From: Sphaerolaimus hirsutus
Lineage: Eukaryota > Nematoda > Chromadorea > Monhysterida > Sphaerolaimidae
Reading direction: 5' to 3'
DNA: 64,000 nucleotides
Assembly: GCA_964036195.1 (NCBI GenBank)
Contig: OZ038453.1
Span: forward strand, 26,684,352 to 26,748,351
The position numbers and the translations under genes are program-made. This document shows, piece after piece, positions 15,448 through 61,320 of this stretch. Numbering within the stretch: the first letter of the stretch is position 1; each line of letters opens with the position of its first letter. A model generated the notes under the pieces. It ran no database searches. It worked only from the letters and a program-made list of their open reading frames with translations, and was not told where the DNA came from.

Positions 15448-16377
15448 CAGGGTTAGTTTTATAAAATATATTTGTATACAAATTGTATAAAAATTGTATA
15501 AAACTGTATTTTATTTTAATTCTATTCTTGTTTCATTTTATTTTATTTTATTCTTGAATGTCGTTAATAAAATAAAATGATACCATTTTACAAAAATGTT
15601 ACAAAGTTTTTTACAAAAAAATCAGAATCTGGCATGCAAGACCAGAAAATCGTTTTCATTAGATCTAAACATGAAAACCAAATAAAGTGACAAACTTTTC
15701 CATTGCTTCAAAAAAATTGCATGCAGTAGGTATTGTGAGCTAGTTGCAAGTGCAAAGTTACAATTATAGATAACAATAATTTGCATTTTCAGTAGAAGGA
15801 ATACTGGAACTGCTGGGTGCATTTGTAAAATGTTTTGCAAAGTGTCAATTGTCATGACAAATGTAAAGTAAAATGTCAATTGTTATGCAAAATGTCAAGT
15901 GTCATGTCAAATGTAAAACAAAGTGTCAATTGTCATGACAAATGTCATGCAATATGTATATTGTGTATCCAAATCTCATGTGTTTTTTGTATCCAAAGCA
16001 TCTGTTTTGTATCCAAATGTTCACATAAAATTATGATACAAAACAAAAGAATGAATTACAAAACATAAAATTTGGTTGCAATTATTTGACAATTGACACT
16101 TTACTTTACATTTATCATAACAATTAACATTTTGCATGACATTTTACATGACATTTGACACTACAGGGCTAAAAACTACCCTATTTCTGTAAATAAACAG
16201 GTAGAAACTCAAGCAACAAGATAAAATTTTTACAAAAAATATATTTGAAAAAATTCGAATTTTTATACAATTTTTTTTTTGAAATTTCCCATTTTATTCT
16301 ATTTTATTTTATACTTAAATTTTCCATTTTATTTTTAATTTTATTTTTAATTTTTTTCTGAGATTTTGCCAACCCTG
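15448..16377. mobile_element. AT-rich hAT-like element (CAGGGTT...AACCCTG)
   Basis: The ends are CAGGGTTAG and TTGCCAACCCTG. The flanking octamers CATGTGAC and ATTGTGAC match at six of eight positions, an eroded target duplication. The interior is ATTTTATTTTA-like repeats. The better-preserved relative at 27272-28114 has a perfect 8-bp duplication. Confidence 0.65.
15838..16170. repeat. Nested fold-back repeat of TGTCAATTGTCATG units
   Basis: Left arm motifs such as GTGTCAATTGTCATGACAAA are mirrored about 200 bp later (TTTGACAATTGACACTTTAC). It probably inserted within the AT-rich hAT-like element. Similar TGTCATGCAAAGTGTC words occur in the introner-like elements near 39-40 kb. Confidence 0.6.
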
Positions 16378-35854: not shown

Positions 35855-38800
35855 GTTGACGTCAATGGCCAGGCTGACTTTTCAACACTCCAGTTTAACA
35901 CAACAACTGGGAAATTCCAAGACTACAAAAATCGGACCAAATGTGACCACAATTTTGAAAATGTGGCCACAGCTGGTGCCAGTTCCGCAAATTGCAAAGT
36001 GAGAAGTGAAATGGCAAATGCGAAGTGAATTGAGAAGAAAATTGGCAAAAGTGAAGTGAAATGAGAAGTGAGAAGTGAATCGAGAAGTGAAATGAGAAGC
36101 GAAATTGCAAGTGAAAATAAAATAAAAAGAAATCATGGGATGACACTACATATGTAAACTTGGCAGCTAGTCAAAATTTCGAAATTTATTAATAAAAATA
36201 AAATAAGGCAAAAATTGCTTAAGGTTGGAATATAGCAATCTACCGTATTTTCTTGAAATTCATTTTTTCAGAGTGGATTTCAAGGCGGGCGGGGGGGCTT
36301 ATTCGAGGGGGAGGGGTCTATTATTTCGTCAGAAATTTTCACAAGATTCATAGTAAAGTATGCTTTTCTATACCCAAAACTGGTAATCAACGTGTCTAAG
36401 TAGGGTATATTTAGACATATCAACATCCATTGCAACACAAGCTAGTATATGTGTAGCTGCGATGCAAACTGCGACGAATGTATACATCATGTACGTTGCA
36501 TACATGATGTACATCATTCCAGATGGGGGGGGGGGTTCATTCACGGGGGGGGTATTTCGAGGATATACGGTATATATACGAAAATAGCAATTATGAATAC
36601 GAAAAAAATTACAAAATGGAACAACTTTTAGCGATTTTAAACGCTATATTCAAATTTTCTTTTGCTATATTTTAATCATAAATATGCAACTGGTAACTTG
36701 GACGTGGGCCAATCAATTTCCAATCAATCATGTGACCCGATCAATTTCATTACAAATATCGGCTGGCATGGTGTCAATGCCAATTATATTTGCATACACC
36801 ATGTTTGAAATGACATAACAAAAAAATCATTCAGGAATGTCTCTGAAATGAAATTGGTCCGGTGCAGTTCAGTATCCATTTAACAAAGTTTTTCCATTTA
36901 ACTTTCTACTTGCCATTTCACTTCTCATTTCACTTCACTTTTGCCAATTTTCTTTGCAATTCACTTCTCATTTCTCTTCGCATTTGCCATTTCACTTCTC
37001 ACTTCGCAATTTGTGGAACTGGCCTCTGGTGCAGGCACATACTGTTGTTTTGGCGTAATGTGTAACGCTGCATGTCCTGGCAACTCTGAATTTTACAACT
37101 CAAATCAGTGGCAGCAATGTGTGCCCCCCGTTGGTGTCTATGAGATCGACTGCTTTACGGTTGGAATCTTTGTATTTTGGTTGAACACACTACCCACTGG
37201 ATTTCAACTGATTTTAATGGTATTTAACTGAAATTGAGTTCAATTTAGATCACATGACAATTTTCTAGTGCACATGCGGCAAAATTAATATTGCCATCTG
37301 GATTTGAACATGGTTTCGCAACACATGCACAAAAATCCAAATGTAAACCATTCAACCCAGTTGACATCAGGTGTCACCAGATATTCAAAACCATTCAAAA
37401 CCACCCAAAACCACGCAGCGAGCCAAATCAGACTACTACGGGAACTCGATCACCCTGGGCGGGGGCTGCGCCACAACCCCAGAACTGAAAGAACAAGTGA
37501 AGCGGGATGATGCCCTGGTTTTGATCCAGCCGCTGGGACACGTGCACCATTGTGAAACTGGAGGGGCAGCTTGCAAGCACTACGCTTGTCTCACTGTCAT
37601 GGTTGGTTTGGGGGTGAGGGACTTGCACAGCAAAAACAGTGCTGGTGATCTGCCGTGATCTGTGGTGAAGTATCTTCGCGTAGAAGCTTGCAGGCACTTC
37701 AATGAACTTCATGAATTTCTAATGTGTTTTTTTTCTGTAAAAAATTTAGTAAACAAATGTGTGAAGTATCGGTGAAGTGCATTCCATCGGTGATAAGGCG
37801 TGATCAGGCTCTGAAGTGTGATCACGGGCAGTGAAGTGCCTGGTGATCAGGCATGATCAGGCTCTGAAGTGAGATCACAAGGGGCACTTCAGACCACTTC
37901 AGTGCACTTCATGAGCACATTATTTGCTGTGTTTGAGGTTTAGAAGACTCCACATATTCAAGGTAGGCATGGGATACTTGATGGGTACCAAATTCAGTGT
38001 CTAATTGGAATTTGGCACTGATCCAAAAATGAGACACAGATTACAATTAAGCAAACATTTTTGGTACAAAAGTCAAACATTTTTTAAGTTGTGAAAAACT
38101 GAAGACATTTCTTGCTGAAATGTGAAACGTCAAATTTGGCACAGAAATTTTGCAGTGCACCCAGCCCAGAAAAGTGATGCCCTTTTCATGTACAAACCCT
38201 TAAAACATCTAAAATATGTTTCAGGTGATTTGATAGGGCTGGTTCCACTGATAATGGTTAAAATGCTTCAACAGTAAAAACTTCCACACTTCAAAACCAA
38301 AATTACCCACCCCCCCCCCCCCTGCACAGAAATTCCAAGTGCACCCCAATGTGATCCTGTATGAGCCATCAGTGAGAAACAGTGCAGACAGCATCATAGG
38401 CAGCCACAGCACTCTGACCAATGTGACAACCTGGTGCCCGGACACATTCATCCACCATCACAGAGACAAGAAGACCAGGTGGCATTCCCAGACCCTGTGG
38501 AGTGCCCTGTAAATGCCCTGCCCCGTAAAATGCCATGTAAATGCATTTGCCAATTTACCACAAATTTTACATAACTTTTGACACTATGCAAGACATTTAA
38601 CATTTTACAGGGCATATTACATGCCTCTTGACACTTTTTATGGCCTTTGACATATTACAGGGCGTTTTACATGACTTTAAACACTTTGCATGGCATTTTA
38701 CATTTTACAGAGCATTTTACATGACATTCCATTTTACATAACCTTGCATGACATTTGACATTTTCAATGACTATTGACACTTTGCATGACATTTAACATG

Positions 38801-41506
38801 CACTTTCCAGGGCCTTTTACAGTGTCTGGGAGTGCCTTAGGGAGCTGGCCTTGGCAGCTGGCAAGTGTACTGACAGGCTCAGGATGTTGCAGCCTGCCTT
38901 TGTGGTGGTGACTTATTTGAGCGGTTGGTGGATTGGGAATTTAGATTCTATCTTTCATTTATTTTTTTCTAGTAGGACTTTTTGACTTTTCCAGTTTCCA
39001 GAGTCTTTTCCCACATTTGAAGTTCAAAAAATCTAATTTTGTTCTGATAAACCTGAATTAATACTATTTTTTTTGTTTCAGCGTCAATATCATGCCATAT
39101 GATTCAATGGATGTTGTTATAGTCAGGATCATTTCCACCCTTCATAGAATCACATCACAAAAGCTTAACATTAAAAAATAATTTGGACCTATTGGATCGC
39201 AGTTGTGGTCCTCACAAAAATACATATATGTTATCATCTACAAAACAATATCCCTCCCAGCGCATGAAAAGTATGTCATCTACTGTGCCATACACACCCA
39301 AAACAGTCATGAAAAACACCATGTGCATTACTCCACTGGGCAGTATGAAGCTGTGACAGAGTACCAGCCAGTGCTGAAGCAAACAGAAGTGCATCATGCA
39401 CAAGCTGCTGCCATTCCACCTGGTGAGACATGGGGGCACTCTCAGACCCTGTAAAAAGCTGTGTAAAATGTCAAATGTCATGCAAAGTGTCAGAAGTCAT
39501 GAAAAATGCCCTGCAACATGGCAACCGAGTTGGCATTTTGCAGGGAATTTTCCATGGCTTTTGACACTTTGCATCACTTTTGACACTTTGCATGACATTT
39601 GACATTTTACAGGGCTTATTACAGGGTCTGGGAGTGGCACATGCAGTGATTGTGATTTTGTAGGGGTTCATGCTGCTATTGCAGATCGATTTGCATGTGC
39701 AAATGTCGGTTAAAATGTGATGAGTGTGGGGTTTTGAGAGGCATCTTATTTTATTTTCTCTAGGGTTTTCTGCAGAGTTGTTAGAATTACTGAACTTTTT
39801 TCAAAGTATATGTAAATGTAAAGTATTTTTTTACTCACCACAAAGTATAGAAAATGTAAAATATACCTACTTTTTTACTCATACGTGTGTGTAAATGTGG
39901 GTACTTTTCTTGTGATTGTAGAAACGACTACTTTTTATCATAGAATATGTAAAAGTGGGCACTTATTTCGAGGGGGGTTATTTTGAGAGGGAGGGGGTAT
40001 TTCGAGGGGAGGGTGTAATCACCTGATATGTTTTAACCATGGTTTTCACATCCAAAACACATTAAGATCAAATCAAATTTTCCACACTGCAATCGCAGGT
40101 GTTACAAAGTTTGCTGAGGCACCATTGCCATCAGAACCATTCCACCAGCCTGGGGACATGGACGACATTCCTGGTGCTACTCTCAGACCCTTTAGAATGC
40201 CCTGTGAAATGTCACATGAAATGTCATGCAGTTTTAAAAGTCCTGTAAAATGCCCTGGGAAGTGGCAAATTTTTTATGCTTTTTACTGTTCATTTGACAT
40301 TTTTCTTGATATTTTGACACATTGCATGACATGAAACATCTCCCAGGGTATATTCCATTACTTTTTACCCTTTGCATGACATTTTGCATTTCACAAAGCA
40401 TTTTACATGACGTTTGACACTTTGCATGACATTTGACATTTGACAGGGAATTTTATAGTGTCTGGAAGTGCCCCCAGGACAGAAAGGGGACTGTGACATG
40501 CCGCAGAAAGTGAACGAACCTAGGAAATGGCCCAAAGAGAATGGACCAAGGATGGATTTTGTTGGGGAAGTTGATTATCCTGGTGTTGAGGGGCATGATA
40601 TTCCCGATTTTCATGTGAGTTGATTTACTAACAATTGCGATATAAAATATGTTATACCGTATTACCTCTAATTAACCCCCCCCCCCTTGAATTAACCCCC
40701 CTCGAAATACCCCCCCTAAATTTCGGCTGAGGAAATAATAACCCCCCCCTCGAAATACCCCCCTAAAATTGAGTGTAACGTGAACGTACATGACAAATAC
40801 CACAGTTTGTGATCTGTACAATGCAGAACACACGTTAAAACTGATGATTATATGATGTTAGGGAAGGGTTTTTGTGTATATACATGTTATATATATGCCT
40901 ATAAACACATATACATCTATGTAATTGTCCGATTTTTCTACGTCTGCGTATGGGGAATTTCCGAACATTTCTGGAAATAATAGACCCCTCTCGAATAAAC
41001 CCCCCCTCGAATTATCCCCCCTCAAATTTTGCTGGCGAAAAAATAAACCCCCTGGGGGTATTTCGAGGTAATACGGTAGTTTGATGTTTGTGAATTTTTG
41101 TAAAAAAGCACTCCTCAAAAAGCACCGATGGTTGTTGAAGTTATTTTCTGTGCACTGCTGCCAAATTGGCATATCTCACACAATCAGAAATGATTCTGAT
41201 GTCATTATAACGCCACTGCTGCATGTCCCTCTAATCAAAATTTTCTACTTTTGAAGAGAACACACATGTGATGCCTTTTGTGGTGAGTAGTGTAAGTGAC
41301 TACTATAATACCACAATTTTGACCCTCTTACAAAATAGACCAACCACCTATACAAATACCCCATTTTGATTGACAGGTCCCCCACCCCATTTTGATTGAC
41401 AGGTCCCCCACCCCATTGTGATTGTTTGTTTGATTACTTTTTGATTGACAGATAAACAGTGAGCGTTTATTCACCACCAGAAAATATGAGGCAAGGTTTC
41501 AGAATG
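35855..41506 (+). CDS. Multi-exon Cys-containing protein gene, partial at both ends
   Basis: Exons 35855-35975, 37035-37159, 37419-37601, 38330-38478, 38841-38923, 39261-39422, (39664-39696), 40099-40173, 40478-40614 and 41452-41506 all have AG/GT borders. Their phases chain without conflict (0>1>0>0>2>1>1>1>1>0>1). Products include a Cys-rich module (TYCCFGVMCNAACPGN, WQQCVPPVGVYEIDC), a module with GGGCATTPELK and HHCETGGAACKHYAC, then hydrophilic His-rich segments (HEKHHVHYSTGQ) and a Pro/Asp-rich part (FHQPGDMDDIPG, DFVGEVDYPGVEG). It is probably an extracellular protein. The family is not recognised. The 33-nt exon is optional because skipping it also keeps frame. Exon 41452 ends in phase 1; its continuation is not seen before the Polinton-like element. 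Confidence 0.6.
35976..37034 (+). mobile_element. Introner-like intron, GTGCCAGTTCC family
   Basis: The intron begins GTGCCAGTTCCGCAAATTGC and ends GCAATTTGTGGAACTGGC then CTCTGGTGCAG. The two ends are inverted repeats about 50 bp long built of AAGTGAGAAGTGAAATGG words. Splice sites coincide with the element ends. A CCGTATT MITE at 36243-36570 (TA target) is nested inside. Confidence 0.7.
37629..37932. mobile_element. CACAGCAAAA-ended MITE within an intron
   Basis: CACAGCAAAAACAGTG...ATTATTTGCTGTG with GTGATCAGG and GTGAAGTG words between, in the intron between exons 37601 and 38330. It is a diverged relative of 25725-26019. Confidence 0.65.
38479..38840 (+). mobile_element. Introner-like intron, CTCCCAGAC family
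   Basis: The 362-nt intron begins GTGGCATTCCCAGACCCTGT and ends ACAGTGTCTGGGAGTGCC then TTAG. The interior is built of TTTACATGACATTTGACAC words. Its ends are inverted repeats flush with the splice sites and the flanking exon frame is open. Confidence 0.75.
39423..39663 (+). mobile_element. Introner-like intron, CTCCCAGAC family
   Basis: Donor GTGAGACATG is followed by GGGGCACTCTCAGACCCTGT. About 200 bp later comes ACAGGGTCTGGGAGTGGCAC, then about 23 bp to the acceptor. The element is nearly but not exactly flush. Confidence 0.6.
40174..40477 (+). mobile_element. Introner-like intron, CTCCCAGAC family, exactly flush
   Basis: The 304-nt intron begins GTGCTACTCTCAGACCC and ends TAGTGTCTGGAAGTGCCCCCAG when followed to the acceptor. 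The element termini supply both GT and AG. The exons on each side are open in the same phase-1 frame, as expected if the element created the intron. Confidence 0.75.
40657..41076. mobile_element. CCGTATT-family MITE in an intron
   Basis: CCGTATTACCTCTAATTAAC and its inverse CGAGGTAATACGG are flanked by TA. C-runs and the ACAATGCAGAACACACGTTA interior identify the family. It lies between exons 40614 and 41452. Confidence 0.82.
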
Positions 41507-42972: not shown

Positions 42973-42978
42973 TATAAA
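42973..42978 (+). promoter_or_regulatory. TATA box for PolB
   Basis: TATAAA lies 50 bp upstream of the ATG at 43023, placing a start site near 43000. This supports ATG 43023 over an in-frame TTG at 42996. Confidence 0.6.
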
Positions 42979-43022
42979 GTGCGCCCTCTGAGCGGTTGGA
43001 ATCATTCAGAAATAATTTAGCA

Positions 43023-46000
43023 ATGGCAGAGCAACAATCATACAAGCTGGTCGACGATCCACCAACATCCAAAACTCAAAGGTCATCAGAAACTTCATCG
43101 GATGAGGAGGTGAATGAAGGGGATATTTATGTTGAGGAAACAGATGAAGTTAGTTTGAATAGGCATTACGAATATCTCAAGGATAACATTAAGGAAATAG
43201 AAGATTCAGAACCAATGTGGAAACATTTATTTACTATTCAAGAGCCATGGTTTGAAAAAAATGGTAAATTTTACACAAACTATTATGTTTATAATGTTAA
43301 ATTTTCTTCCAATCTAGAAGACAAAGTAGTTGACCCTATCACATTTTTGGAATATATTTTAGCAAAATGCTTGCAAAAGATTTACATGGATTTGTTTTCA
43401 GATAAGGGAAATGATGAAAATAAACAATTATATGTCGGTATAAAAGTTATGTCTAAAAGCTTTGATCGCGGTTACATATTATCCAAAATGACACATATAA
43501 ATCAAGTTTCAGTTGCATCAATTTTGAATAGAGTAGAGATGATTTTTCAGTCTGCGGGGTTGGAAGATGATAATCTATTAAATGGATTTTCTGTTAATAT
43601 TACCACTGTAGAGAAGAAAAGTATGATTGCAAAAGGTTTCAATAGTATAACTAAACTTTTACCAGATACTAAAAGCAAGGTAGCTTATCATAAACGAACT
43701 CTGTATAACCCACCTTTTATTTTTTCATTGCGAGACCAGTGTTTACCCATATGTATTTTTATGGGACGTCAAAATTTAATTGCATCAGTAACAAAAAGAA
43801 ATAATTTTTTTGCGAGATACAAAAGGAAAAATAGATCAGGTAGGTTTCTCTTACTGGAAAAGGATGTCAATAATTTTATTGATTTTGCTACAGAAAAATT
43901 CATGTATAACAGACACAAAAATGACATGTTTGAAAATGTAAAAATATTGACAAAAGCAATTAATAATCATAAACCTATTTTGAAACATATACATTTTGGG
44001 TGTAGGGTGTGGGGTCTTGAAAATGGTGGGCTCGAGGTATTAATTGAAGAGTCATGTGGTAAGAAGAAAGTTACTTGGATTGATGTGTTGCATGATAAAG
44101 AGCATGTTGTCTTGATCAAATCTATAAAAGCATTAGCCAATTGTTATCGAGTAACCGATTGCTGTAATAAGATTATGTTTAAAAAAGATACTCTATGTAA
44201 ATGTCCCCAATCTACTTGTCCGATGTGTTACAACTCAGTAATATGTCCCATAGAAAAAGGTAAAGCAACTATTGTATGTCAGCGATGTAACAGATCATTT
44301 TATAATAGAATGTGTTATGAAAATCATTTAAAAAATACTTTTCCAGATAAAGCAAACTTATCCATAACAAAACTATACGATTCAGATCATTCAGATGAAG
44401 AAAGTAATGTGAATGAGAAAGATGTAGAAAAACTAGAAGGAAGAATCATGCCACCGTTAACTGTATGTCAATGCGTACAATTCTGTTTAAAATGTAAGAG
44501 AAAAATAATCATGTGTCAAAATCATGAAAATTGTGGTTTTACAAAATGTTCTTATTGCAAACAGTTTGTACCAATGGAGAAAACGTTTCGAGATCACCAG
44601 TTTGAATGTTTCTTACAGAAACCTTTACCATTCGAATATTTACACCCAACAAAACCATTCCAGTTAATATTTTATGATACAGAAACATTTCAAAAACCCG
44701 TAACAGAAAGTGTACAAAAGTGGGGTAGCGATAACAAGTCAGATGTGGTTCGCGTGGTACATTCAACTTATGCTATTTATTGCGTAAAAAGATGTGAAAA
44801 GTGTTTCTTTAGTGAGTATTCATGTAAATCATGTGCAGAGTGCACCAAATTTTTTTATGGATTGAATGCCATTGAGAAGTTTTATTATTTTTTGATGGAT
44901 TACAAGAAACATAACAATTTATTGGTCATAGCTCACAATTTGAGCTTTGACTTATGCGAAATTTTATCAATTTTTATAAAGAATGGGCAACTTCCAAATG
45001 TTTTACTTTCCAATGCACGTAGAATCTTTTACTTGCGTTTAAATAGTAAGATAAGTTTTTTGTGTTCACTAAAATATTTCCCTATGAGTTTGGCCCAGGT
45101 AGGGAAGGCTTTCAATTGTAAAGTAAGAAAAGGTAATTTTCCACACGGTGTTATATCACAATATAATCTTAATCATGTTTATGATCGACTTCCTTCAATT
45201 GAATGTTATGATGTGGACAATATGAAAGCTGATGAGCAAAAAACATTTTTGGAGTGGTATGAGAAAAATAAGTTTGAAGCATTTGACATTAAAAAAGAAT
45301 GTTTTGAATATATAAAGTCTGATGTGTTGGTATTACAAGAAGCATTTTGCAAGTTTTCAAAAGAAATTTTTGATAGTTTTGGTATTCTTCCACATTTAAA
45401 TTCCAAAAGCCTCAGTTCATTAGCAAATTTTTTATGGAAATCACAACATTTAGAACCATCAACCATCATCCACATTCCACCTCACAATAGCTTTAATATT
45501 GGAGATAACCAATCTAAATGGGCCTTGAGAAGCATAGTAGCGCTATCAAAATATTACGATAATCCGTACATTCAATATTCGAGATCGCAAGGAGGTGAGA
45601 AGGTTGTAATGTGTTTTGATGCTGACAAGAATGTTTATAGAAGTTTCAAAATAGATTGCGTTGTGTATAAAGATGCTGAGAAAAAAGAAATAGACTTTTT
45701 TAGAGAGATGCTCGGGTGCCTGTACCACAGCTGTAAAAAATGCAATACATCGAGATATGGTAAATTGAGACAGTCACATTTAACTCATAAAGAAAATTAC
45801 GACAACACAATGAGGAGGATAAATATGATCGAACAGCAAACAGGTAAGCGTGTTGAAAAATGGTGGGGTTGCGATATAGATCAATTGAGAAAAGATAGTA
45901 GGAAATTTGCACAAATTTTTAATGCAACTAAAGTCAGACCTCCGCTCAATATCAGGGATTCTTATTATGGTGGCAGAACAGAGTTATTCAGCTGTTTCGC

Positions 46001-47468
46001 AAGCACAAATAAAAATGGTAATTTATTCGACAATAATTTAGCAACAGAGTTTGATCCGAGTTTTACAATAAATGCAATAGATGTAGTTTCAATGTATCCA
46101 GCAGCTATGAAAAAATTCCCCATGCCCGTGAAGGCCCCTAGAGTAATGACGCAAGAAGAATTGAAATTTTTAAAGGGATATGCAGGAAAACCGTTACCAT
46201 TTAATGCGGGTGTTTTGCAATTGGAAATAATGCCACCGAATGACTTACTTTTACCATGCTTACCAATAAAGATTGATCAATTTTCTGTATACACTTTATG
46301 TTACAATTGCGCTAAAAAATATATGACAGGTAAAGAAAGAATGCCACCACCTGACGGATCATATAGGTGCTTGTGTACGAGTAAACAAAGGAAACTGTTT
46401 GGAACTTGGTCCGTTAATTGTATAAATATGGCTTTGGAAAGGAATTACAGAATTGTAAATGTATACGAGGCACTTATTTATGATAATGTGTCCCAATGGA
46501 CACCGGAAGCACCGGAAGAAGGCGTTTTTAGCAGTTTTATTGATAAAATTTTTACTCAAAAAGTTCTATCAGCTAAACACAACTTTAAAAGTGATGAGGA
46601 AAAACAGGAATTTTGTAAAAAGTTTTTCAAAATAGAGAAATGCTATTTAGACCCCGAGAAATTTGAAGAAAATGCAGCCAAAAGCAGGGTTTGCAAGTTA
46701 CTTCTCAACAGCTCATATGGACAATTGGGTTTAAACGCTCAAAAGTCTAAATATGTTTTTATCAAGGATGTTGGTAAATTTATGAATACAATTTTTTCAC
46801 CAGTAAATGAAATTGAAGAAGTTTTCATTATGAACCAAAATGTAGTTAGGGTCAAAATGAAAACTTCAAACGAATATGAATATAATTCACCCAATTCGTG
46901 TTTAATTTTAGCATTGTACATTACGAGTTATTCGCGTTCAATCTTACAGGATTTGTTGGAACAACTTAACTATAATCAATTACTATATACTGATACTGAT
47001 TCGTGTTATTACGTGGCTACCGAGAGCGATATTCATCCAAAAACCAATCCCGGGTTTCTGGGTGAACTGAGTTCTGAGGTACCGAATGATGAATTTGTAA
47101 GTGAATTTGTAGGTATCGCAAATAAGTTTTATTCAATGACATATAGAAAAAAATCTGACCCATGTAATGCATATACCGTATTAAAAGCCAAAGGTGTGAG
47201 GATGACAAATAAAAATAAATGTTTATTACAGAGTAATGAGCTTAAAAAGCAATTGATTTCATATTTTTCACCACACCTCTGTGCACCATATTATTTAAAT
47301 ACTGAAAATCTTACTTTTAGAAACAATCCCAGTTTGACTTCAATCACAACTAGTACACTTAATAAAAGGGTTCATTTTCAGTTGAAAAAACGTTATCATT
47401 ATTGGTTTGGAGACAGACCTTATTCCGTTCCTTGGGGTTTTTCTGGAATATTACCACATAATGGGTGA
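43023..47468 (+). CDS. polB: Protein-primed family B DNA polymerase
   Basis: 1,481 residues. It replicates the element from protein-primed ends. The exonuclease motifs are DTE (D552, E554), NLSFD (D643) and YIKSDV (D767). Polymerase motif A is DVVSMYP (D1020), motif B is KLLLNSSYG (K1225) and motif C is YTDTDS (D1324, D1326), so all catalytic residues are present. The roughly 550-residue N-terminal extension carries paired Cys motifs (CPQSTCPMCYNS, CQRCNRSFYNRMC, CVQFCLKCK, CGFTKCSYCK), as usual for Polinton polymerases. The ATG is preferred because it follows a TATA box. The 3' end overlaps the ATPase start by 8 bases. No intron or break is seen. Confidence 0.96.
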   Translation: MAEQQSYKLVDDPPTSKTQRSSETSSDEEVNEGDIYVEETDEVSLNRHYEYLKDNIKEIEDSEPMWKHLFTIQEPWFEKNGKFYTNYYVYNVKFSSNLEDKVVDPITFLEYILAKCLQKIYMDLFSDKGNDENKQLYVGIKVMSKSFDRGYILSKMTHINQVSVASILNRVEMIFQSAGLEDDNLLNGFSVNITTVEKKSMIAKGFNSITKLLPDTKSKVAYHKRTLYNPPFIFSLRDQCLPICIFMGRQNLIASVTKRNNFFARYKRKNRSGRFLLLEKDVNNFIDFATEKFMYNRHKNDMFENVKILTKAINNHKPILKHIHFGCRVWGLENGGLEVLIEESCGKKKVTWIDVLHDKEHVVLIKSIKALANCYRVTDCCNKIMFKKDTLCKCPQSTCPMCYNSVICPIEKGKATIVCQRCNRSFYNRMCYENHLKNTFPDKANLSITKLYDSDHSDEESNVNEKDVEKLEGRIMPPLTVCQCVQFCLKCKRKIIMCQNHENCGFTKCSYCKQFVPMEKTFRDHQFECFLQKPLPFEYLHPTKPFQLIFYDTETFQKPVTESVQKWGSDNKSDVVRVVHSTYAIYCVKRCEKCFFSEYSCKSCAECTKFFYGLNAIEKFYYFLMDYKKHNNLLVIAHNLSFDLCEILSIFIKNGQLPNVLLSNARRIFYLRLNSKISFLCSLKYFPMSLAQVGKAFNCKVRKGNFPHGVISQYNLNHVYDRLPSIECYDVDNMKADEQKTFLEWYEKNKFEAFDIKKECFEYIKSDVLVLQEAFCKFSKEIFDSFGILPHLNSKSLSSLANFLWKSQHLEPSTIIHIPPHNSFNIGDNQSKWALRSIVALSKYYDNPYIQYSRSQGGEKVVMCFDADKNVYRSFKIDCVVYKDAEKKEIDFFREMLGCLYHSCKKCNTSRYGKLRQSHLTHKENYDNTMRRINMIEQQTGKRVEKWWGCDIDQLRKDSRKFAQIFNATKVRPPLNIRDSYYGGRTELFSCFASTNKNGNLFDNNLATEFDPSFTINAIDVVSMYPAAMKKFPMPVKAPRVMTQEELKFLKGYAGKPLPFNAGVLQLEIMPPNDLLLPCLPIKIDQFSVYTLCYNCAKKYMTGKERMPPPDGSYRCLCTSKQRKLFGTWSVNCINMALERNYRIVNVYEALIYDNVSQWTPEAPEEGVFSSFIDKIFTQKVLSAKHNFKSDEEKQEFCKKFFKIEKCYLDPEKFEENAAKSRVCKLLLNSSYGQLGLNAQKSKYVFIKDVGKFMNTIFSPVNEIEEVFIMNQNVVRVKMKTSNEYEYNSPNSCLILALYITSYSRSILQDLLEQLNYNQLLYTDTDSCYYVATESDIHPKTNPGFLGELSSEVPNDEFVSEFVGIANKFYSMTYRKKSDPCNAYTVLKAKGVRMTNKNKCLLQSNELKKQLISYFSPHLCAPYYLNTENLTFRNNPSLTSITTSTLNKRVHFQLKKRYHYWFGDRPYSVPWGFSGILPHNG

Positions 47469-48201
47469 TAGATATTTTACTGATAATGATGTTCAATTCG
47501 CAAATTATGGCCAATCTTATTTAATAATTGGCCCGAGTAAATCTGGAAAAAGTAATTTTTGCTTAAAATTCTTAAAATCTGCATTGGATGGATCACTCAA
47601 TCTAGACGCGACACCAGACAAAGTATTGATATGTTCCGGCAGCAATCAGCACAACCATCCTGTTTATCAACAGTTACAACAGCTATACCCAGACAAAGTG
47701 GAAATTTTGGAGAGAAACAAAGTACCATCATTGACGTCTTTAGAAGATACAAATCTGGCCCAAATAGTCGTATTCGATGATATGCAATTGGTATTGCCAC
47801 GCTGGTACACAAACAGGCTGATTACTAATACAGTGAGTCATAGTAAAAAATTGATTGTATTACTACAATCACACGATCCTTTTCTGGACCACAGTCTTAA
47901 AATTATTAGAAGAAATTGTACATTTTTGATATTGTTCAGGTACCCAACTGAACATGTTATTCAAAATCTAGGGTCTAGTTGGTTTGGTCGAACTGAACAA
48001 AAGAAACGATTTATTCAGGCTTATGTAGATGCTATAAAAGAACCATTCGGTTATTTAATGGTCAATTTTCAAAACTCTAACCCCATTTTCCAGGCCCGAT
48101 CAAACATTCTCGGAGAGCGTGGCGATTACCAAATAATATACGACATTTCAGCAACAGCATCGGGTCAGAACAGTGAAAACTATTTCACTGTATCACAGTA
48201 A
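47461..48201 (+). CDS. FtsK/HerA-type genome-packaging ATPase
   Basis: 246 residues. Such ATPases pump the genome into the capsid. Walker A is GPSKSGKS (residues 24-31) and Walker B is IVVFDDM (D106, D107), followed by LIVLLQSHDP as the likely sensor strand. Length and order fit the A32-like packaging ATPases of Polintons and related viruses. The start ATG lies inside the last codons of PolB (ATGGGTGA overlap). A longer TTG-started frame would only add polymerase-overlapping residues. The stop TAA shares a base with the next ATG (TAATG). Confidence 0.9.
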   Translation: MGDRYFTDNDVQFANYGQSYLIIGPSKSGKSNFCLKFLKSALDGSLNLDATPDKVLICSGSNQHNHPVYQQLQQLYPDKVEILERNKVPSLTSLEDTNLAQIVVFDDMQLVLPRWYTNRLITNTVSHSKKLIVLLQSHDPFLDHSLKIIRRNCTFLILFRYPTEHVIQNLGSSWFGRTEQKKRFIQAYVDAIKEPFGYLMVNFQNSNPIFQARSNILGERGDYQIIYDISATASGQNSENYFTVSQ

Positions 48202-48545
48202 TGATGGGAAATGATAAATTGGTACCCAGAATAAAAAAATGTAAACTAAAGTTGAGAAAGATGGCAGCAAAGTCGAGTGATATGCAACTGAAACATTTTT
48301 TAAAGAGGACCAGCAATGATGTGATCTGTTCAATTGTAGATATATCATTAAATGTTGTAGAAAATGATGCATTGAGAAAAGTACTTACAAAATCTACTAA
48401 ACATTCACTTGATTATTTTATACCTATTTTAAAACTATTGTCAAATTGTCATTCTATAAAAAGGGCTAGAAAGCTACTTATAAGGCACGCTTCATTGCAA
48501 TTGATGAAATTACTCGTCAATGCAGTCGCTTCTAAAGTTGTATAA
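48201..48545 (+). CDS. Small basic helical protein, unknown (114 aa)
   Basis: A Lys/Arg-rich, mostly helical protein with a conserved-looking middle (KHFLKRTSNDVICSIVDIS) and end (RKLLIRHASLQLMKLLVNAV). Polinton-type elements often carry a small protein of this style close to their structural genes. I infer a virion or assembly role from position only. It overlaps both neighbours by one base, TAATG on each side, so it sits between two coupled start/stop junctions. Confidence 0.75.
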   Translation: MMGNDKLVPRIKKCKLKLRKMAAKSSDMQLKHFLKRTSNDVICSIVDISLNVVENDALRKVLTKSTKHSLDYFIPILKLLSNCHSIKRARKLLIRHASLQLMKLLVNAVASKVV

Positions 48546-49621
48546 TGTATATTCAACACAAGTCCAATTTGAGTGTTAATGATTTCAAGTATGTATTGAA
48601 GAAGTTTGTGGATCAAGAAATTGGAAAAGAACAATTACAAAATATAATTAATCAAATAATTAAAAGTAAAAGCTTAACTGAAAGGCAGAAGCTTCATTTA
48701 TTATACGCAGCTAGAAATAAAATTTCTGACATTTTGAATTCAAAAAGCGCACAAAAACAACAATCGTTTCCACAAATTTTTTTAACACCCCCCAACACAC
48801 CCTCACACCCGAATACACCCTCACACTCCAATACACCCCCAATCTCCAATACACCCCCAATACCTCCACACATTCAACAATCACCACCATCGCCACAGCC
48901 ATCCAATGATGGTGACAATGAAAGTGAACAGGAACCAGATAATTCATTACACGATTTTTACACCCCCCCAGTAACCCAAGGTCGTCCTAAAAAAAAGTCG
49001 GGCGCTAAGAAAAGAACATTATATCAAACATTACACAAAAGTCAGATGAAAAGTCGTCCCCGAAAGCTGAGAAAAATTGTGAGAGAAGATCAATCTCCAA
49101 ACAAGGTAGATTATATTAGCGATGATGGGAACAATACTCCATCAATTAGGCGCAGCTTAAAATACGATGATGACGGTTCGGATGATAATCCACGCATGAT
49201 AACACCCTCAATCAATAGTGGGACACCACATTTACAATTAAATACAGATGATTCACCATACATGATTTCAAAAATGAAGGAACTTCATACCAAGTTTAAG
49301 GATAAAGTACCAGTCAATATCCAAAATCAAATTTTAAGTCCAGATAGAAAAGTACCCTTATTGAATACAAATTACAGTCAAATTCTTCGCTATTTAGCTC
49401 ATAGGTATAAAAGCAAGAAACCGTTATCAAAGGTACATCCACCGGTAGGCTTTGATGAATTTTCAGATTACATCTATAAAATTGAAAGACACACTCGAGC
49501 ATCACATGAAGAAAAATTGAAAAACTTGCTTGGTAAAGGTGCAAAAAATATAATTAAAAGAAAGAAGCAGCCACGTGTAAAGCCAGCAATTGGTTGGTTT
49601 CAACAGAAATGCCGACTTTGA
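48545..49621 (+). CDS. Unknown protein with Pro/Thr repeat linker (358 aa)
   Basis: Three parts. A helical N-terminus of about 75 residues has an EQLQNIINQIIKSKSLTERQ-type segment. A low-complexity linker follows (NTPSHPNTPSHSNTPPISNT, then acidic and Lys-rich stretches). A C-terminal domain of about 100 residues (ILRYLAHRYKSKKPL... to GWFQQKCRL) ends it. The linker is encoded by repeated CCNAATACACCC-like 12-mers and may vary in length. No family is recognised with confidence; the position suggests a structural or assembly role. It begins at a TAATG junction and overlaps the integrase start by 13 bases. Confidence 0.75.
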   Translation: MYIQHKSNLSVNDFKYVLKKFVDQEIGKEQLQNIINQIIKSKSLTERQKLHLLYAARNKISDILNSKSAQKQQSFPQIFLTPPNTPSHPNTPSHSNTPPISNTPPIPPHIQQSPPSPQPSNDGDNESEQEPDNSLHDFYTPPVTQGRPKKKSGAKKRTLYQTLHKSQMKSRPRKLRKIVREDQSPNKVDYISDDGNNTPSIRRSLKYDDDGSDDNPRMITPSINSGTPHLQLNTDDSPYMISKMKELHTKFKDKVPVNIQNQILSPDRKVPLLNTNYSQILRYLAHRYKSKKPLSKVHPPVGFDEFSDYIYKIERHTRASHEEKLKNLLGKGAKNIIKRKKQPRVKPAIGWFQQKCRL

Positions 49622-50664
49622 GCAAAAAACAGGAGTCACTACTAAAATATATATGGTATGGTCGGTATAAAAAAGGTAGAATAACTGCCAAAAAAATCAC
49701 CCAAGGTTTGTTGTCACGTGCTCAGGTTTTGTACAATGAAGTAAAGAAATATGACAAAAAAATACAGCAACAACAAGTAGATGCCTGGTTAAAAAAACAA
49801 CCGGGTTACGTTTACGCTAAACAGGCAAAAAGATTGAAGAGATTTACACGACCAGTCATAAGTACGGGTTTATACGATTGTCTGAGTATAGATTTAGCAT
49901 TTTTAGGTCCGCCAAAAACTAATTATGGGAACACGGCAGTTTTATTAGCCGTGGATACTTTTTCAGATATGATTCACTTTAGGATATGTAAGAATAAATC
50001 AGCCAATCACATTACGCTAAAATTTGAAGAAATTTTAAGGGAAATCGAAGGTAGGGGTGGCTCAGTGGAAACAGTTTTTTGTGATTTCGCTGCAGAGTTT
50101 CTAAGTAAACAGTTTACAGAATTTTTGGAAAAAGAAAGGATCACTTTTACACCACTAGCATCCTATCAGAAAAATTCCCCAGTAGAAAAAGTGATTTCAA
50201 CAATTAGAATGAAATTGGCAAGGTTTTATGCAACAACAAAGCACCAACGTTATTACTTTGCGCTATCAAAAATAGTCAATTCAATCAACAGAACTCCCCG
50301 AGAGTATTTAAATGGCAAGGCACCCATACAGCTTACCATTTTAAATGATAGAGAAATTTTTAAGAAGCGATTTCAACCGAAGCTTGATCGTGGATCGATT
50401 AAAAATATACCTCAAAGTAAAAGACCAAAAGTGAAGTTTGATTTGAATGATCCTGTAAGAGTGAGAATTCATAAAACATTTGCCAAGTCAACAGATCAGA
50501 AGTTTTCATCAAATATATATTACATTGCGAAAATCAAAGATACATTTATACCGTATACATATTACATTTCAAAAGTTAAGGACGCAACACAGTCAGAAAT
50601 TTTACCAAAGGTTTATTACGCCGGGGATATTGTAAATGCTGAGGAAAATGGACAAGACCAATGA
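49609..50664 (+). CDS. Retroviral-type integrase (DDE)
   Basis: 351 residues. It inserts the element into host DNA. The rve core carries D95 (CLSIDLAF), D159 (FCDFAAEF) and E193 (SPVEKV), with 33 residues between the second D and E. The N-terminus is basic and helical (KKGRITAKKITQGLLSRAQ) and lacks a clear HHCC zinc finger. The C-terminus is basic with a YYIAKIKD-type repeat, and no chromodomain is evident. ATG 49609 is chosen over an in-frame TTG at 49594. The frame is intact. It overlaps the downstream one-TM gene by 17-29 bases. Confidence 0.93.
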   Translation: MPTLSKKQESLLKYIWYGRYKKGRITAKKITQGLLSRAQVLYNEVKKYDKKIQQQQVDAWLKKQPGYVYAKQAKRLKRFTRPVISTGLYDCLSIDLAFLGPPKTNYGNTAVLLAVDTFSDMIHFRICKNKSANHITLKFEEILREIEGRGGSVETVFCDFAAEFLSKQFTEFLEKERITFTPLASYQKNSPVEKVISTIRMKLARFYATTKHQRYYFALSKIVNSINRTPREYLNGKAPIQLTILNDREIFKKRFQPKLDRGSIKNIPQSKRPKVKFDLNDPVRVRIHKTFAKSTDQKFSSNIYYIAKIKDTFIPYTYYISKVKDATQSEILPKVYYAGDIVNAEENGQDQ

Positions 50665-50953
50665 TGACGTATATAAAAAGACTGTAGAACCTTTGATTTC
50701 AACCACTACTCGTACAAAGAACAACTCTTGTACGATAAATAAAAAGTTTGTCTTGCAAGCAGGCATCACATTTATTCAATGCTTAACCGTCATAATCATA
50801 TTAATATATCTTACAACGCATGTACCCAGTAAAACCATTTATGAGAAATCCCCAGAAATTTTGAGAGCTTTTTTGAGAATCTTTGATAGAAAGACGTCAC
50901 AAGATCAAGTTTACGATTTAATTTTTGCGAATCACAGAAACATTTCGAAATAA
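50636..50953 (+). CDS. Single-span membrane protein (105 aa)
   Basis: One hydrophobic segment lies at about residues 41-64 (GITFIQCLTVIIILIYLTTH), preceded by a basic Ser/Thr-rich head and followed by a charged tail. It has no signal peptide, so it is probably a tail-facing or type II/III membrane protein. In-frame ATGs at 50636 and 50648 are both possible. The gene ends in TAATG shared with the next start. Virus-like elements often encode such small membrane proteins; the role here is unknown. Confidence 0.75.
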   Translation: MLRKMDKTNDDVYKKTVEPLISTTTRTKNNSCTINKKFVLQAGITFIQCLTVIIILIYLTTHVPSKTIYEKSPEILRAFLRIFDRKTSQDQVYDLIFANHRNISK

Positions 50954-51987
50954 TGGAGGCAAAATCTAGTGAATATCATTTAGATTTAGTATTGGAACCA
51001 AATGAAGGATCATTGGCTTCAAATATGGTATATGATTTTCCGAGTAATATCCGATTCAACTTGTCACAAAATTGGGAGATGGCTTTATCTTCCATTGCAT
51101 TTTCACATATAGATAGGACGGAATGTGTTCTAGATAGTAATAAACAAGAAGAGTATTATTTGGTGTATGATTGCAATGGTAAATTTTATTTTGCTACAAT
51201 TAATTTTACAAATCTCATGACAAACAGGAAATTTTTGAAACTACCCACCAACAATGATATAATAAAATGTTTAAAAAATGCATTTGACAATGCAATAGAA
51301 TGTAAAGATTTGGGTGAATTAAAAGATATTGCTGGTTTATCACAATGGACTGAATTATTTGACATTATAGACAAGTATCAACGGAATGCAACAGATGAAC
51401 CCAAAAGGAGACGTCGGCATGTTCCATTTGAAACATTATATGACACAGATTATGGATTTATAAATGTAGGTAATGCATTGAATTTGTATGCATCAAAATC
51501 TTTGAGACCAACATCATCTTTAAGACCAAATGAAATGAAAATAACACCTACTCTAGATTTTGAGAGTTTTTTAGAAGATAAGTGTTTTAAATGTAAAACA
51601 AATGTTGAAATGATATTATTGTCAAATCGATTGAAAAATTTACTCTCAGTTGGTAGAAACTTGCTTATACACGAACAATTTATATATCCACATTTAGGAT
51701 TTTTCCGCGGTTACCAACAAGTATATATAGCGGAAGTTTCGTCACTTCAAAAAACATTATTCGGTTGCAATAAAGTGTCATTAGGAAACATATTTTTAGA
51801 CAGTTCACAAGTGATTCAGAAAGTTGATTATAAACCCAATATACAAAAGTTTTACCCATTTGATTCAGCTTATACAAACAGATTACAATTTAACTTGTTA
51901 CATGAAAACGGCTTAGCCGTAAAAGTGGCACCAAATACCAGAATATTTTTATCTCTAACATTGAGAAAAAGACCAATGTTGCAATAA
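50953..51987 (+). CDS. Probable minor capsid (penton-type) protein
   Basis: 344 residues. The N-terminal pattern (SLASNMVYDFPSNIRFNLSQ followed by WEMALSSIAF) and the C-terminal pattern (VKVAPNTRIFLSLTLRKR) match a virion protein family seen next to the major capsid gene in animal Polintons, which I take to be the minor capsid or penton type. That assignment is from memory of the family pattern. The middle has a RRRRH basic patch that might be a processing site. It starts at TAATG and abuts the next gene without spacer. Confidence 0.62.
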   Translation: MEAKSSEYHLDLVLEPNEGSLASNMVYDFPSNIRFNLSQNWEMALSSIAFSHIDRTECVLDSNKQEEYYLVYDCNGKFYFATINFTNLMTNRKFLKLPTNNDIIKCLKNAFDNAIECKDLGELKDIAGLSQWTELFDIIDKYQRNATDEPKRRRRHVPFETLYDTDYGFINVGNALNLYASKSLRPTSSLRPNEMKITPTLDFESFLEDKCFKCKTNVEMILLSNRLKNLLSVGRNLLIHEQFIYPHLGFFRGYQQVYIAEVSSLQKTLFGCNKVSLGNIFLDSSQVIQKVDYKPNIQKFYPFDSAYTNRLQFNLLHENGLAVKVAPNTRIFLSLTLRKRPMLQ

Positions 51988-52422
51988 ATGGATAATCCTA
52001 CGGCTGAAAAAGAGTGCGCTAAAATACACAAATTTAACTATGGAGTTTTGAAAATGCCAGAGCCCTCATTTTACAAAAAGAATATTGAAAAACAGTCAGA
52101 TTTCATTGGTATGACGGGATTAGGAGCACCTGACATTCACATTACTAGGTCATTAGCGGAACCAATTATCACGACAGAAAATCAAACAGCTGTGAAAAAA
52201 GATGATAATGCTGCTAAAAAAAAGAAAAAGAGACGGAAAGGCAGCAGTAAAGTGGTGGTTGGCAAAGGTGTCAAGGGTAAGGGTCGCCGACGACGGGGCA
52301 CAAAAAGGTTAAATATATGGAAAAAAACAAAAGGTATGGGTGGTCAGAAAAAAGGTAAAGGGCGCAGAAAGCGTAAAAGTAAGAAGAAATTTCCTGTAAC
52401 AATCCCAGTCTTCCCTCGTTAG
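51988..52422 (+). CDS. Lys/Arg-rich core-like DNA-binding protein (144 aa)
   Basis: The first 70 residues are ordinary. The rest is extremely basic (KKKKKRRKGSSKVVVGKG, GKGRRRRGTKR, KGKGRRKRKSKKK). This resembles condensing core proteins of adenovirus-like virions in composition, not in traceable homology. The ATG directly follows the TAA of the preceding gene. Its own TAG is followed after one base by the TATA box of the major capsid gene. Confidence 0.7.
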   Translation: MDNPTAEKECAKIHKFNYGVLKMPEPSFYKKNIEKQSDFIGMTGLGAPDIHITRSLAEPIITTENQTAVKKDDNAAKKKKKRRKGSSKVVVGKGVKGKGRRRRGTKRLNIWKKTKGMGGQKKGKGRRKRKSKKKFPVTIPVFPR

Positions 52423-52423
52423 T

Positions 52424-52430
52424 TATATAA
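52424..52430 (+). promoter_or_regulatory. TATA box for the major capsid gene
   Basis: TATATAA lies two bases after the core-protein stop and 55 bp before the capsid ATG. A CTCAGTCAGTTG initiator-like stretch sits about 25-30 bp downstream. This is the only intergenic space large enough for a promoter between 47461 and 53930, suggesting separate late expression of the capsid. Confidence 0.6.
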
Positions 52431-52484
52431 ATGCAGTCAGATTTTTGAATCTCAGTCAGTTGAACAGTCTTCTTTTTTTTAAAA

Positions 52485-53930
52485 ATGGCTGCATCCACAT
52501 CTAATATACAAGGCTCAACCACATTCCAGCCCCAAACCATTTTAAAGCAGAAGGTAGATCCAACGTCTTCATTTGTGACCCCGAATGAGTTGGCGTATTT
52601 CAGCGCGCCTCAAATCGACTCTACGTTTGTTCAATCTCAACTTTTGGAAATACCATTATCAATACAACACAATGAATTCAACTCATCATGGACATGGACG
52701 TTAGATTCCAGTCAATACTATATCGATTTGTCAAACATTTTTGTTCGTATGCAAATTTGCGTAGTGCAAGAGAATGGAACACCCATTCCAACTCTGAGAA
52801 ATGTCCCAGGCGTAGACGGTGGACCCGCAACGCAAGAAAGTATTACTGATAAAGTGGCACTAATTCCTGGATTTGGTGCAACTTGTTGGCGTACAGTAAA
52901 AGTGTTTAGTAAAGATGCTTTGGTCGTTGATGTCACCGACAATTTTGGATATTTGGTACATTTGAGGCATAAATTACTTTCAGATCAAGAGAAACACTAC
53001 AAGGAATTAGAAACTGAAGGATTTTTCAATGAGGATTATGAACAGATCAGAAAACTAGAGAATGAAGGTTATAAAAAAAGAGCAGAGCAAATTGCCGGAA
53101 GTCGAACTTGCATAACTTTTTCAAAATTGGCTCTAGACCTTTTTTCAACCCGTCGTTATTGGCCGGCAGGTTATAGTCTTACATTTGAACTAGTAAGACA
53201 TGCCGATCAATTTTGTTTAGAGTGTTTCGATGCGGGGCTAGCTCCTAATGCCCAAAGATACAAAATCCAAGTAAAAAAAATTCAATTATTTGCTTTACAC
53301 TTGCAACCGAGTGCCGAATGTGCCATCGCAGTAGAAGAAGCAGCTATAAGTCGACCATTAAAATTACATTTTCTCAATACTCGAGTTATAAGAGTTAACA
53401 TACCCGGCGGTTTAAAACAAACCTCCCAGCAAGCGATATACGTGGGAAAATTACCTAGTTTTTGTATTGTTCAGATGCTGACTGGTGATAATTATTTGGC
53501 GCAGGATGTTACAAAACCAAAATTCAGTTTCCCAGCACACAAAATTGAAAGGGCAACCATGCTCTTCGGTGCAACTAGACACCCACTAGTCCCTTATTAC
53601 TTTGATACCAATAATGCCAACGCAACAGACCAAGGATACGCCTTGGCGTTTCGAGAATTATATAGATGTTTAAAGAAAAATTTTAATGTACAAAATTGTC
53701 TCACTTTAGGTGAATTTAAAAGCGACATGTTTGCATTGAGTTTTGATCCAGTTGTATGTAAGGTTGATAATTCAATGACTGATTTATTTTCAGTAGGTTC
53801 ACTCGGTCTCGATTTTGTTTTTCATAATACCACCCCCCCTGAAGGTCTAGTTATACTAGTTTATTGCTTCTCAATTGCATCATTACATTTGCACGCTGAC
53901 CGCACTATTTTATCAAATGCCAATTACTAA
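52485..53930 (+). CDS. Major capsid protein (double jelly-roll hexon type)
   Basis: 481 residues, the usual size for Polinton/adintovirus capsids. It forms the pseudo-hexameric capsomers. Supporting features are the N-terminal strand-rich region (FNSSWTWTLDSSQYYIDLSN), the turn-rich central part and the C-terminal strand block (FALSFDPVVCK, LDFVFHNTTPPEGLVILVY, ending DRTILSNANY), which fits the second jelly-roll end. The ATG has its own TATA box. The stop overlaps a strong hairpin. The frame is intact. Confidence 0.85.
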   Translation: MAASTSNIQGSTTFQPQTILKQKVDPTSSFVTPNELAYFSAPQIDSTFVQSQLLEIPLSIQHNEFNSSWTWTLDSSQYYIDLSNIFVRMQICVVQENGTPIPTLRNVPGVDGGPATQESITDKVALIPGFGATCWRTVKVFSKDALVVDVTDNFGYLVHLRHKLLSDQEKHYKELETEGFFNEDYEQIRKLENEGYKKRAEQIAGSRTCITFSKLALDLFSTRRYWPAGYSLTFELVRHADQFCLECFDAGLAPNAQRYKIQVKKIQLFALHLQPSAECAIAVEEAAISRPLKLHFLNTRVIRVNIPGGLKQTSQQAIYVGKLPSFCIVQMLTGDNYLAQDVTKPKFSFPAHKIERATMLFGATRHPLVPYYFDTNNANATDQGYALAFRELYRCLKKNFNVQNCLTLGEFKSDMFALSFDPVVCKVDNSMTDLFSVGSLGLDFVFHNTTPPEGLVILVYCFSIASLHLHADRTILSNANY

Positions 53931-53963
53931 GACAACGAATTTGGTGGTGGTATTCGTTGTCTT
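53929..53963 (+). terminator. Hairpin at the capsid gene 3' end
   Basis: AAGACAACGAAT and ATTCGTTGTCTT form a perfect 12-bp stem with an 11-nt loop, followed by TTTGTC. The last two bases of the stop codon are in the stem. No AATAAA is seen close by. It may mark transcript ends, as hairpins do for giant-virus and virophage genes, or stop read-through into the protease. Confidence 0.55.
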
Positions 53964-53989
53964 TTGTCTAGTGGTAGTGTAGTAGCGGT

Positions 53990-54016
53990 GGAGAGAGAGA
54001 GAGAGAGAGAGAGAGA
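53990..54016. repeat. (GA)n microsatellite upstream of the protease
   Basis: About 13 GA units between the capsid and protease genes, ending 25 bp before the protease ATG. Two ATGs at 54016 and 54022 open a short upstream frame that ends before the real start. Confidence 0.9.
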
Positions 54017-54040
54017 TGGTGATGAGGAGAAGTTGATGTC

Positions 54041-54553
54041 ATGGAGGTGCTAGACATCAAAATTATTATACAACATGATAACGTGTTGCAAAATAGTGCC
54101 AGCTGTATCAATTTAGATGACAATGAACTAGGTAAAATCTCAGTGGGTAAAGGAGCAGTTTGCTTCTTAAATTACCCAGAAGTAACGTGGGGGCATTTTA
54201 TTTCATTGTATAGAATTTCGTACAATCACGTATTCATTTTTGATTCACTTGGTAGGAAAAACTTGACGCAACGAGTGATAAAGGATATAAAATTGCAGTT
54301 TATGGGTGACTGCATTTTTTCAATAAATGAAAATGTGATACAAAGCAAAGCTGCAGATACTTGCGGCTTATTCGCACTTTGTTTTTTGAAAATTATGTTA
54401 CTATGTAAGGCAACAACAACTGGCCATGTTGTTTTACAAGTGATTTCCCTCATAAAGAGACATAACATTAAACAATTATTCAAGTTACTGTTCAAGACAA
54501 TTCCATTCGGGAAATTGTCAACCAGTGCCAAAAATGTGATAAAAAATGAATAA
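54041..54553 (+). CDS. Adenain-like cysteine protease
   Basis: 170 residues. It is the maturation protease of the virion. The catalytic set is visible: H52 (TWGHFISLY), D68 (FIFDSLG), Q101 (VIQSKAADT) and C108 (DTCGLFALC), in the order and spacing of adenovirus-type (C5) proteases. The frame is intact. It lies downstream of the capsid gene after a GA microsatellite and is the last clear Polinton gene. Confidence 0.92.
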   Translation: MEVLDIKIIIQHDNVLQNSASCINLDDNELGKISVGKGAVCFLNYPEVTWGHFISLYRISYNHVFIFDSLGRKNLTQRVIKDIKLQFMGDCIFSINENVIQSKAADTCGLFALCFLKIMLLCKATTTGHVVLQVISLIKRHNIKQLFKLLFKTIPFGKLSTSAKNVIKNE

Positions 54554-56309: not shown

Positions 56310-56406
56310 ACTCCACTCCCAGACACTGTAAAATGCTCTGAAATGTTACGCTGCAAAGTGTAAATTTGATGTACATTTCAGACCATTTTACAGTGTCCGG
56401 GAGTGG
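56310..56406. repeat. Solo hairpin of the CTCCCAGAC introner family
   Basis: ACTCCCAGACACTGTAAAAT at the left and ATTTTACAGTGTCCGGGAGT at the right. It is the same termini as the introns at 38479 and 40174, but here outside any recognised gene. Confidence 0.7.
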
Positions 56407-56654
56407 CGACATATGCAATGAAATGATGCATCACCTCAAATATACACCTCAACACTGGTTGGGTGTATATGTGCGCGTGTGTGCTAGTGGTCTGAAAAGC
56501 GCGTGTGCACAAAATTTCCATATACACCCAACCAATCAGCACACTAGCTCCTCCCCTCCCCCACAAAATGGGAGTGTATGTGAAATGGCATTTGTGTAAA
56601 GTGTCAATAGTAAAAATGCAAAAAGGCACAACATAAATGGCGAGATGGCTAGGG

Positions 56655-61291: not shown

Positions 61292-61320
61292 CTGCAATAT
61301 CGTGAATTTTATTGAGCCTT

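Follow-up and report, generated by a model that had tools for sequence, protein, structure and literature searches.

A family of short palindromic elements in Sphaerolaimus hirsutus is best read as a non-autonomous cut-and-paste DNA transposon (MITE) that makes 3-bp CWG target duplications and acts as an introner, a reading to which a probability of roughly 0.87 is assigned. In the window (the whole 64-kb stretch of DNA that was analysed) two predicted introns of one gene begin and end precisely with such elements. Elsewhere in the genome, related copies split conserved protein domains in phase.

Under the proposed mechanism, a sense insertion into an exon at CAG would give CAG/GTGCC...CCCCCAG/exon. 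The first two bases of the element would then be the donor GT, and the copied target CAG would supply the acceptor AG. Because the donor comes with the element and the acceptor with the duplicated target, splicing would take out the element together with one target copy, bringing the old message back and restoring the original reading. A reversed copy would present GG at the would-be donor, as exemplified by the second element of the window gene. Splicing of the element introns is predicted from their borders in the sequence.

Elements of the window gene

The core terminus CACTCYCAGAC has four exact occurrences in the window (two forward, two inverted) and none in 20 simulated windows. There are likewise four inverted core pairs, where 20 simulations gave 0.05 on average and never more than one; these pairs delimit the elements E1 to E4 (Table 1).

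Table 1. Elements and neighbouring predicted exons and introns, in window positions, with their differences from three paralogues of the window gene
Feature	Position	Strand	Description	Difference from paralogues
Exon before E1	38330..38478	+	Open frame; phase 2, ending in ...KKT-AG; its final CAG is the left target copy	1–2 substitutions/149 bases, 0 indels
E1, sense introner	38479..38840	+	Flush with predicted intron GTGGCATTCCCAGAC...GTCTGGGAGTGCCTTAG	17–21 substitutions/330–353 bases, 3–4 indels
Exon after E1 (R-ELALAAGKCTDRLRMLQPAF)	38841..38906	+	Frame joins, phase 2	0–1 substitutions/66 bases
Exon before the intron holding E2 (...AAAIPPG)	39281..39422 (start approximate)	+	Open frame	2–3 substitutions/141 bases
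Predicted intron holding E2 (IPPG/VTKFAEAP, phase 1)	39423..40098	+	Placed by reading frame only	
E2, reversed copy inside the 39423–40098 intron	39433..39640	-	Target duplication ATG/ATG	
Exon before E3 (VTKFAEAPLPSEPFHQPGDMDDIP-G)	40099..40173	+	Last bases CTG are the left target copy	0–1 substitutions/74 bases
E3, sense introner	40174..40477	+	Flush with predicted intron; CTG on donor side, CAG on acceptor side	12–15 substitutions/290–302 bases, 2–3 indels
Exon after E3 (QKGDCDMPQKVNEPRKWPKENG...)	40478..40614 (end approximate)	+	Open frame	1–2 substitutions/137 bases
E4, short related element outside the gene	56310..56409	.	Degenerate ends, no recognisable target duplication	

A sequence-only reading of this stretch had proposed that three introns of one gene carry inverted copies of one terminus, that the outer two take their splice sites from the element ends with the exons in phase, and that a transposon had created them. 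This reading is supported for E1 and E3, whose ends fall at predicted splice borders in phase 2 and phase 1, respectively; the joined exons read ...DTFIHHHRDKKTR / ELALAAGKCTDRLRMLQPAF across E1 and ...EPFHQPGDMDDIPG / QKGDCDMPQKVNEPRKWPKENG across E3. It does not extend to the middle intron. E2, with the ends GGGGCACTC...GAGTGGCAC, is not flush because it is a reversed copy that sits inside a longer intron; it begins 10 bases into that intron, and the frame-consistent intron end lies well past its own end. The occurrence of the termini outside genes, at 56310, was borne out in so far as E4 is a related element, albeit one with degenerate ends. Neither E2 nor E4 constitutes an intron on its own.

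Three paralogues of the window gene (L004–L006) are located on the same chromosome (C4, near 26.34, 26.46 and 26.51 Mb), and all three elements are present in each. The exons adjacent to the elements differ from those of the paralogues by 0–3 substitutions and no indels, whereas the elements vary more. The acceptor of E1 is CCTTAG in the window gene and CCCCAG in all three paralogues. The nearest non-element intron (38907–39081) is also little diverged between the paralogues, at 3–6 of 168–175 positions. A putative small exon at 39082–39126 is as variable as the elements (3–4 of 45) and for that reason is not claimed. The joined window gene, as a query that included guessed joins in its middle, matched nothing in Pfam, and a protein search with it found no relative.

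Several other features are apparent in the window. A Polinton/Maverick-like region at 42978–54553 contains long ORFs that match DNA_pol_B_2 (4.6e-35) and, weakly and below the Pfam cut-off, the rve integrase; several more large ORFs lie beside these. Two long arrays of a 39-base unit, with several frames open, occupy 2–1722 (~44 copies) and 2964–7001 (~104 copies). A dispersed repeat, GGGGGTATTTCGAGG and its reverse, recurs in introns and intergenic DNA (39974–40017, 40680–40717, 40979–41027 and 12629–12681).

Ends, copy number and target site of the family

The 348-Mb assembly (762 contigs) was scanned for further copies. With E2 as the query at least 101 matches were obtained (40 scored of 3128 candidates), many places being counted on both strands because the element is a palindrome. 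The genome-wide search for the terminus that the sequence-only reading had put forward as a check returned thousands of exact ends: 3158 right ends followed by CWG (1604 + 1554) and 2302 left ends preceded by CTG (1143 + 1159), with 0 for the reversed-pattern control in both cases. These figures count the ends of copies anywhere in the genome rather than exonic copies, and they miss copies with altered ends.

The family consensus is a 189-bp hairpin or palindrome, GTGCCACTCCCAGAC...GTCTGGGAGTGCCCC, and the aligned termini read (CWG) GTGCCACTCCCAGAC ... GTCTGGGASTGCCCC (CWG). The consensus folds into a single hairpin with 89 base pairs and a loop of 3 bases. Nothing outside the loop is unpaired except the four outermost bases on either side, which are unlike: GTGC at one end and CCCC at the other. 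Oriented copies of less than 260 bases were used for the consensus and the divergences; there were 30 of these, including one L006 duplicate. Divergence from the consensus ranges from 1.6 to 9.5 %, with a median of 5 %.

Target sites were tabulated for 32 oriented, non-duplicate copies. Loci L001–L005, L012, L027, L034 and L043–L050 were left out as unrelated or duplicates, E4, L020, L032 and L037 were set aside as of unclear orientation, and the removal of three L006 rows, duplicates of E1–E3, reduced the table from 35 copies to 32. Orientation was called from the terminal letters (a T as the second base and CC at the opposite end), so that agreement among those letters is partly by construction. 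A CWG is found on the left of 30 of the 32 copies and on the right of 22. Seventeen have an identical 3-bp duplication (11 CAG, 5 CTG and 1 CAT; 16 are thus CWG), six have two differing CWGs (four CTG/CAG, two CAG/CTG) and nine are otherwise imperfect. The flanks widen the target to ACCWGGT. A 4–8 bp target duplication, with a CACTA-type reading, was considered and dropped once further copies showed CWG.

A viral collection was also scanned. The element interior had 0 matches there, and the terminus had two (on one contig with phage-like ORFs and on one other), the remaining element being missing at both. Within the window, inverted-repeat elements at 15824–16165 and 61320–61476 have an introner-like interior (CATGACATTTGACAC...) without the CACTCYCAGAC ends, and possibly represent related families.

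Copies that split conserved domains

Four junctions produced by joining exons at the element borders lie within Pfam domain matches above cut-off. In the pore region of an iGluR gene the joined exons read SYTANL/AAFLTVERM, and the junction falls at residue 84 of a Lig_chan match spanning residues 7–107 (2.9e-35). In a guanylate cyclase gene they read ACEHL/SAHSE, with the junction at residue 54 of a Guanylate_cyc match spanning 8–72 (2.2e-17). The Innexin domain (4.1e-26) runs across the innexin junction, TDAW/EQYTENY. A second junction of the iGluR gene, KDIR/RNGLEE in its amino-terminal domain, is covered by ANF_receptor (8e-7). The innexin and guanylate cyclase genes lie on C7 and the iGluR gene on C16. 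Amnionless (4e-5) and MSP (2e-5) matches cross junctions below the Pfam cut-off, while Neur_chan_LBD (above cut-off), CUB and CUT_C (both below) lie near a junction without crossing it. When aligned to PDB sequences, the iGluR pore (5e-49) and innexin (2e-12) show no gap where the exons join. The guanylate cyclase alignment has a one-residue gap a few residues ahead of the junction; the iGluR amino-terminal domain gives a weak match (6e-4), and there a gap of two residues closely follows the junction.

Similar predicted introns, with both borders at element ends, are found in E1, E3, the guanylate cyclase gene (L008), innexin (L015/L066), twice in the iGluR gene and in an Amnionless-like gene (L024). 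Exons for innexin, a kainate-type iGluR, a neurotransmitter-gated channel and guanylate cyclase, with weaker matches to Amnionless and cuticlin, point to an animal genome.

All domain-matched copies are in element-sense orientation. Ten sense ORFs, picked by eye from 22 candidates, were compared with Pfam: eight match a domain at E ≤ 0.1, three of these matches being above cut-off, and the other two match nothing. None of 14 antisense ORFs (nine queries; 27 distinct candidates) matched Pfam, although the sense ORFs, by contrast, had been picked by eye. An automatic test of ORF length in sense versus antisense found no strand bias (33 oriented copies, p = 0.25). No exonic reversed copy was found in a search that was not systematic. 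When six copies from C1 were examined in the order listed, three (L083, L084, L086) had a clear left end (≤2 mismatches) and none had homology support. L084 (CTG/CTG) has a long sense ORF, but is not counted because it has neither Pfam nor PDB support; L088 has a long ORF as well, but its left end is misplaced.

Innexin paralogues and alternative explanations

At the point where innexin L015 and its tandem relative L066 carry an element, the innexin genes L053, L054 and L055 are uninterrupted (FTKAMEQYTENYC, FTGPMEQYTENYC). Since L053 and L054 are near-identical, this amounts to two independent presence/absence comparisons, both between paralogues inside one genome. The innexin loci (30 of 133 matches, 99 kb) contain eight inverted core pairs, one of which is counted twice through overlapping loci and some of which are doubtful, against 0 in each of five simulations.

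The introns might instead be older than the elements within them. Existing donors such as CAGGT resemble the target ACCWGGT, so that an ordinary MITE entering pre-existing introns would often lie at intron starts and would give some flush cases. E2 lies inside an intron, as expected from this, and in one innexin locus (L072:1155–1294) a copy starts at the donor position of an intron that apparently runs ~200 bases further; this copy perhaps inserted at an existing donor that resembled the target. In E1, E3, the guanylate cyclase and innexin copies and both iGluR copies, however, both ends lie at the borders and the duplication rebuilds an unbroken coding sequence. Together with the three innexin paralogues that have no intron at that point, these flush copies make entry into pre-existing introns an improbable explanation. 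Likewise, it is very unlikely that the copies in exons go unspliced and represent recent or damaging insertions into broken or polymorphic gene copies. An iGluR copy flanked by CTG/CTG, for which no AG yields an intact product, would fit such damage, yet the flanking exons are open and conserved, further iGluR exons recognised by eye are open, the copies have moved 1.6–9.5 % from their consensus, and in the four paralogous window genes the exons were conserved while the elements drifted.

An RNA-borne introner that spreads by reverse splicing would match intron borders exactly, like the fungal families in the cited part of the introner survey PMC9860276. Terminal inverted repeats, 3-bp duplications and reversed and extragenic copies are instead the marks of a DNA transposon, and transposition through RNA is accordingly regarded as highly improbable. 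An intron-making DNA transposon, as the sequence-only reading had suggested, is backed by the exact ends found genome-wide, the CWG duplications and the in-phase domain splits in other genes, as well as by window-gene paralogues with conserved exons and variable elements and innexin paralogues without the intron.

The acceptor-side target copy

Where the target is CTG, the copied acceptor would begin as TG, and a T to A change would then make AG. CTG on the donor side with CAG on the acceptor side is found in E3, the guanylate cyclase copy, the copy adjoining a CUB domain, L036 and innexin L066. These genic copies have the look of a fixed T to A substitution that created the AG, and selection may have acted on the acceptor-side target copy. 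The opposite arrangement, CAG/CTG, is present in L025 and L028. Of the first 100 right ends in the list, 60 have CAG on the acceptor side (p = 0.057); among 27 CTG-left copies paired with a listed right end, the right copy is CAG in seven and CTG in 20.

Two domain-supported copies, L033 and L025, have TG instead of AG at the acceptor border. L033 (L051:4872–5060) is the CTG/CTG copy inside a conserved exon of an otherwise open iGluR gene, and a TG acceptor is needed there: use of the AG that lies 19 bases upstream would disrupt the reading frame, and use of the next downstream AG would cost seven conserved residues. Either GT-TG splicing is in use at this copy or the copy is not functional. 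For L025 an in-frame AG lies nine bases downstream.

A staged birth of introns may tentatively be proposed, in which a CTG insertion first gives a tolerated GT...TG intron (the iGluR CTG/CTG copy) and this becomes a GT-AG intron later through a single T to A change in the acceptor-side target copy, as in innexin, guanylate cyclase and E3; the CWG within ACCWGGT would be a pre-adapted exon junction. This sequence of events is at present the less favoured possibility. If it is true, insertions on the sense strand would do almost no harm, owing to the choice of target itself.

Relation to known systems and significance

The target of zebrafish Harbinger3 resembles CACCWGGTC, to which the target found here, ACCWGGT, is similar; Harbinger3 is not known to make introns. 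According to the cited part of PMC4482050, target duplications of 3 bp with the sequence 5′-CWG-3′ characterise NuwaI, a group within the PHIS superfamily that occurs mainly in animals. The CWG duplications of the present family thus point to the NuwaI group of PIF/Harbinger (PHIS), and the family is probably derived from a PIF/Harbinger-type MITE that would have been mobilised by a NuwaI-like transposase of that type. The cited part of PMC4482050 attributes to the NuwaI group a DDE transposase together with a Myb/SANT protein, whereas the present family is known from the short non-coding element alone.

Introners as such are already known. With the DNA-transposon introners in the cited part of PMC9860276 the family shares many similar introns flush with the element, inverted repeats and target duplications. 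The same part of that survey includes families in Chrysochromulina that bear their own donor and obtain the acceptor from the duplication, as is proposed here; those families have a 4 bp duplication and no inverted repeats, in contrast to the 3-bp CWG and inverted repeats of the present elements. The animal host and the apparent conversion of CTG into CAG in the acceptor-side target also differ from the introners surveyed there, which among animals occur in only two groups in the part cited. No report of this family was found in the open literature on introners with Harbinger, MITEs and animals, a search outside which lie subscription journals and preprints, and the species may be in the supplementary list of PMC9860276. 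The present introner thus seems to be a new animal family.

The origin of new introns is an old question, and few animals are reported to have introners. With its thousands of exact-end copies, its paralogues with and without the intron and its apparent stages of acceptor repair, this genome would allow intron gain to be followed stepwise. The route from target site to splice site is unusually transparent, and the question of GT-TG splicing is testable. The family would also allow a test of whether the target preference of a transposase predisposes it to intron-making.
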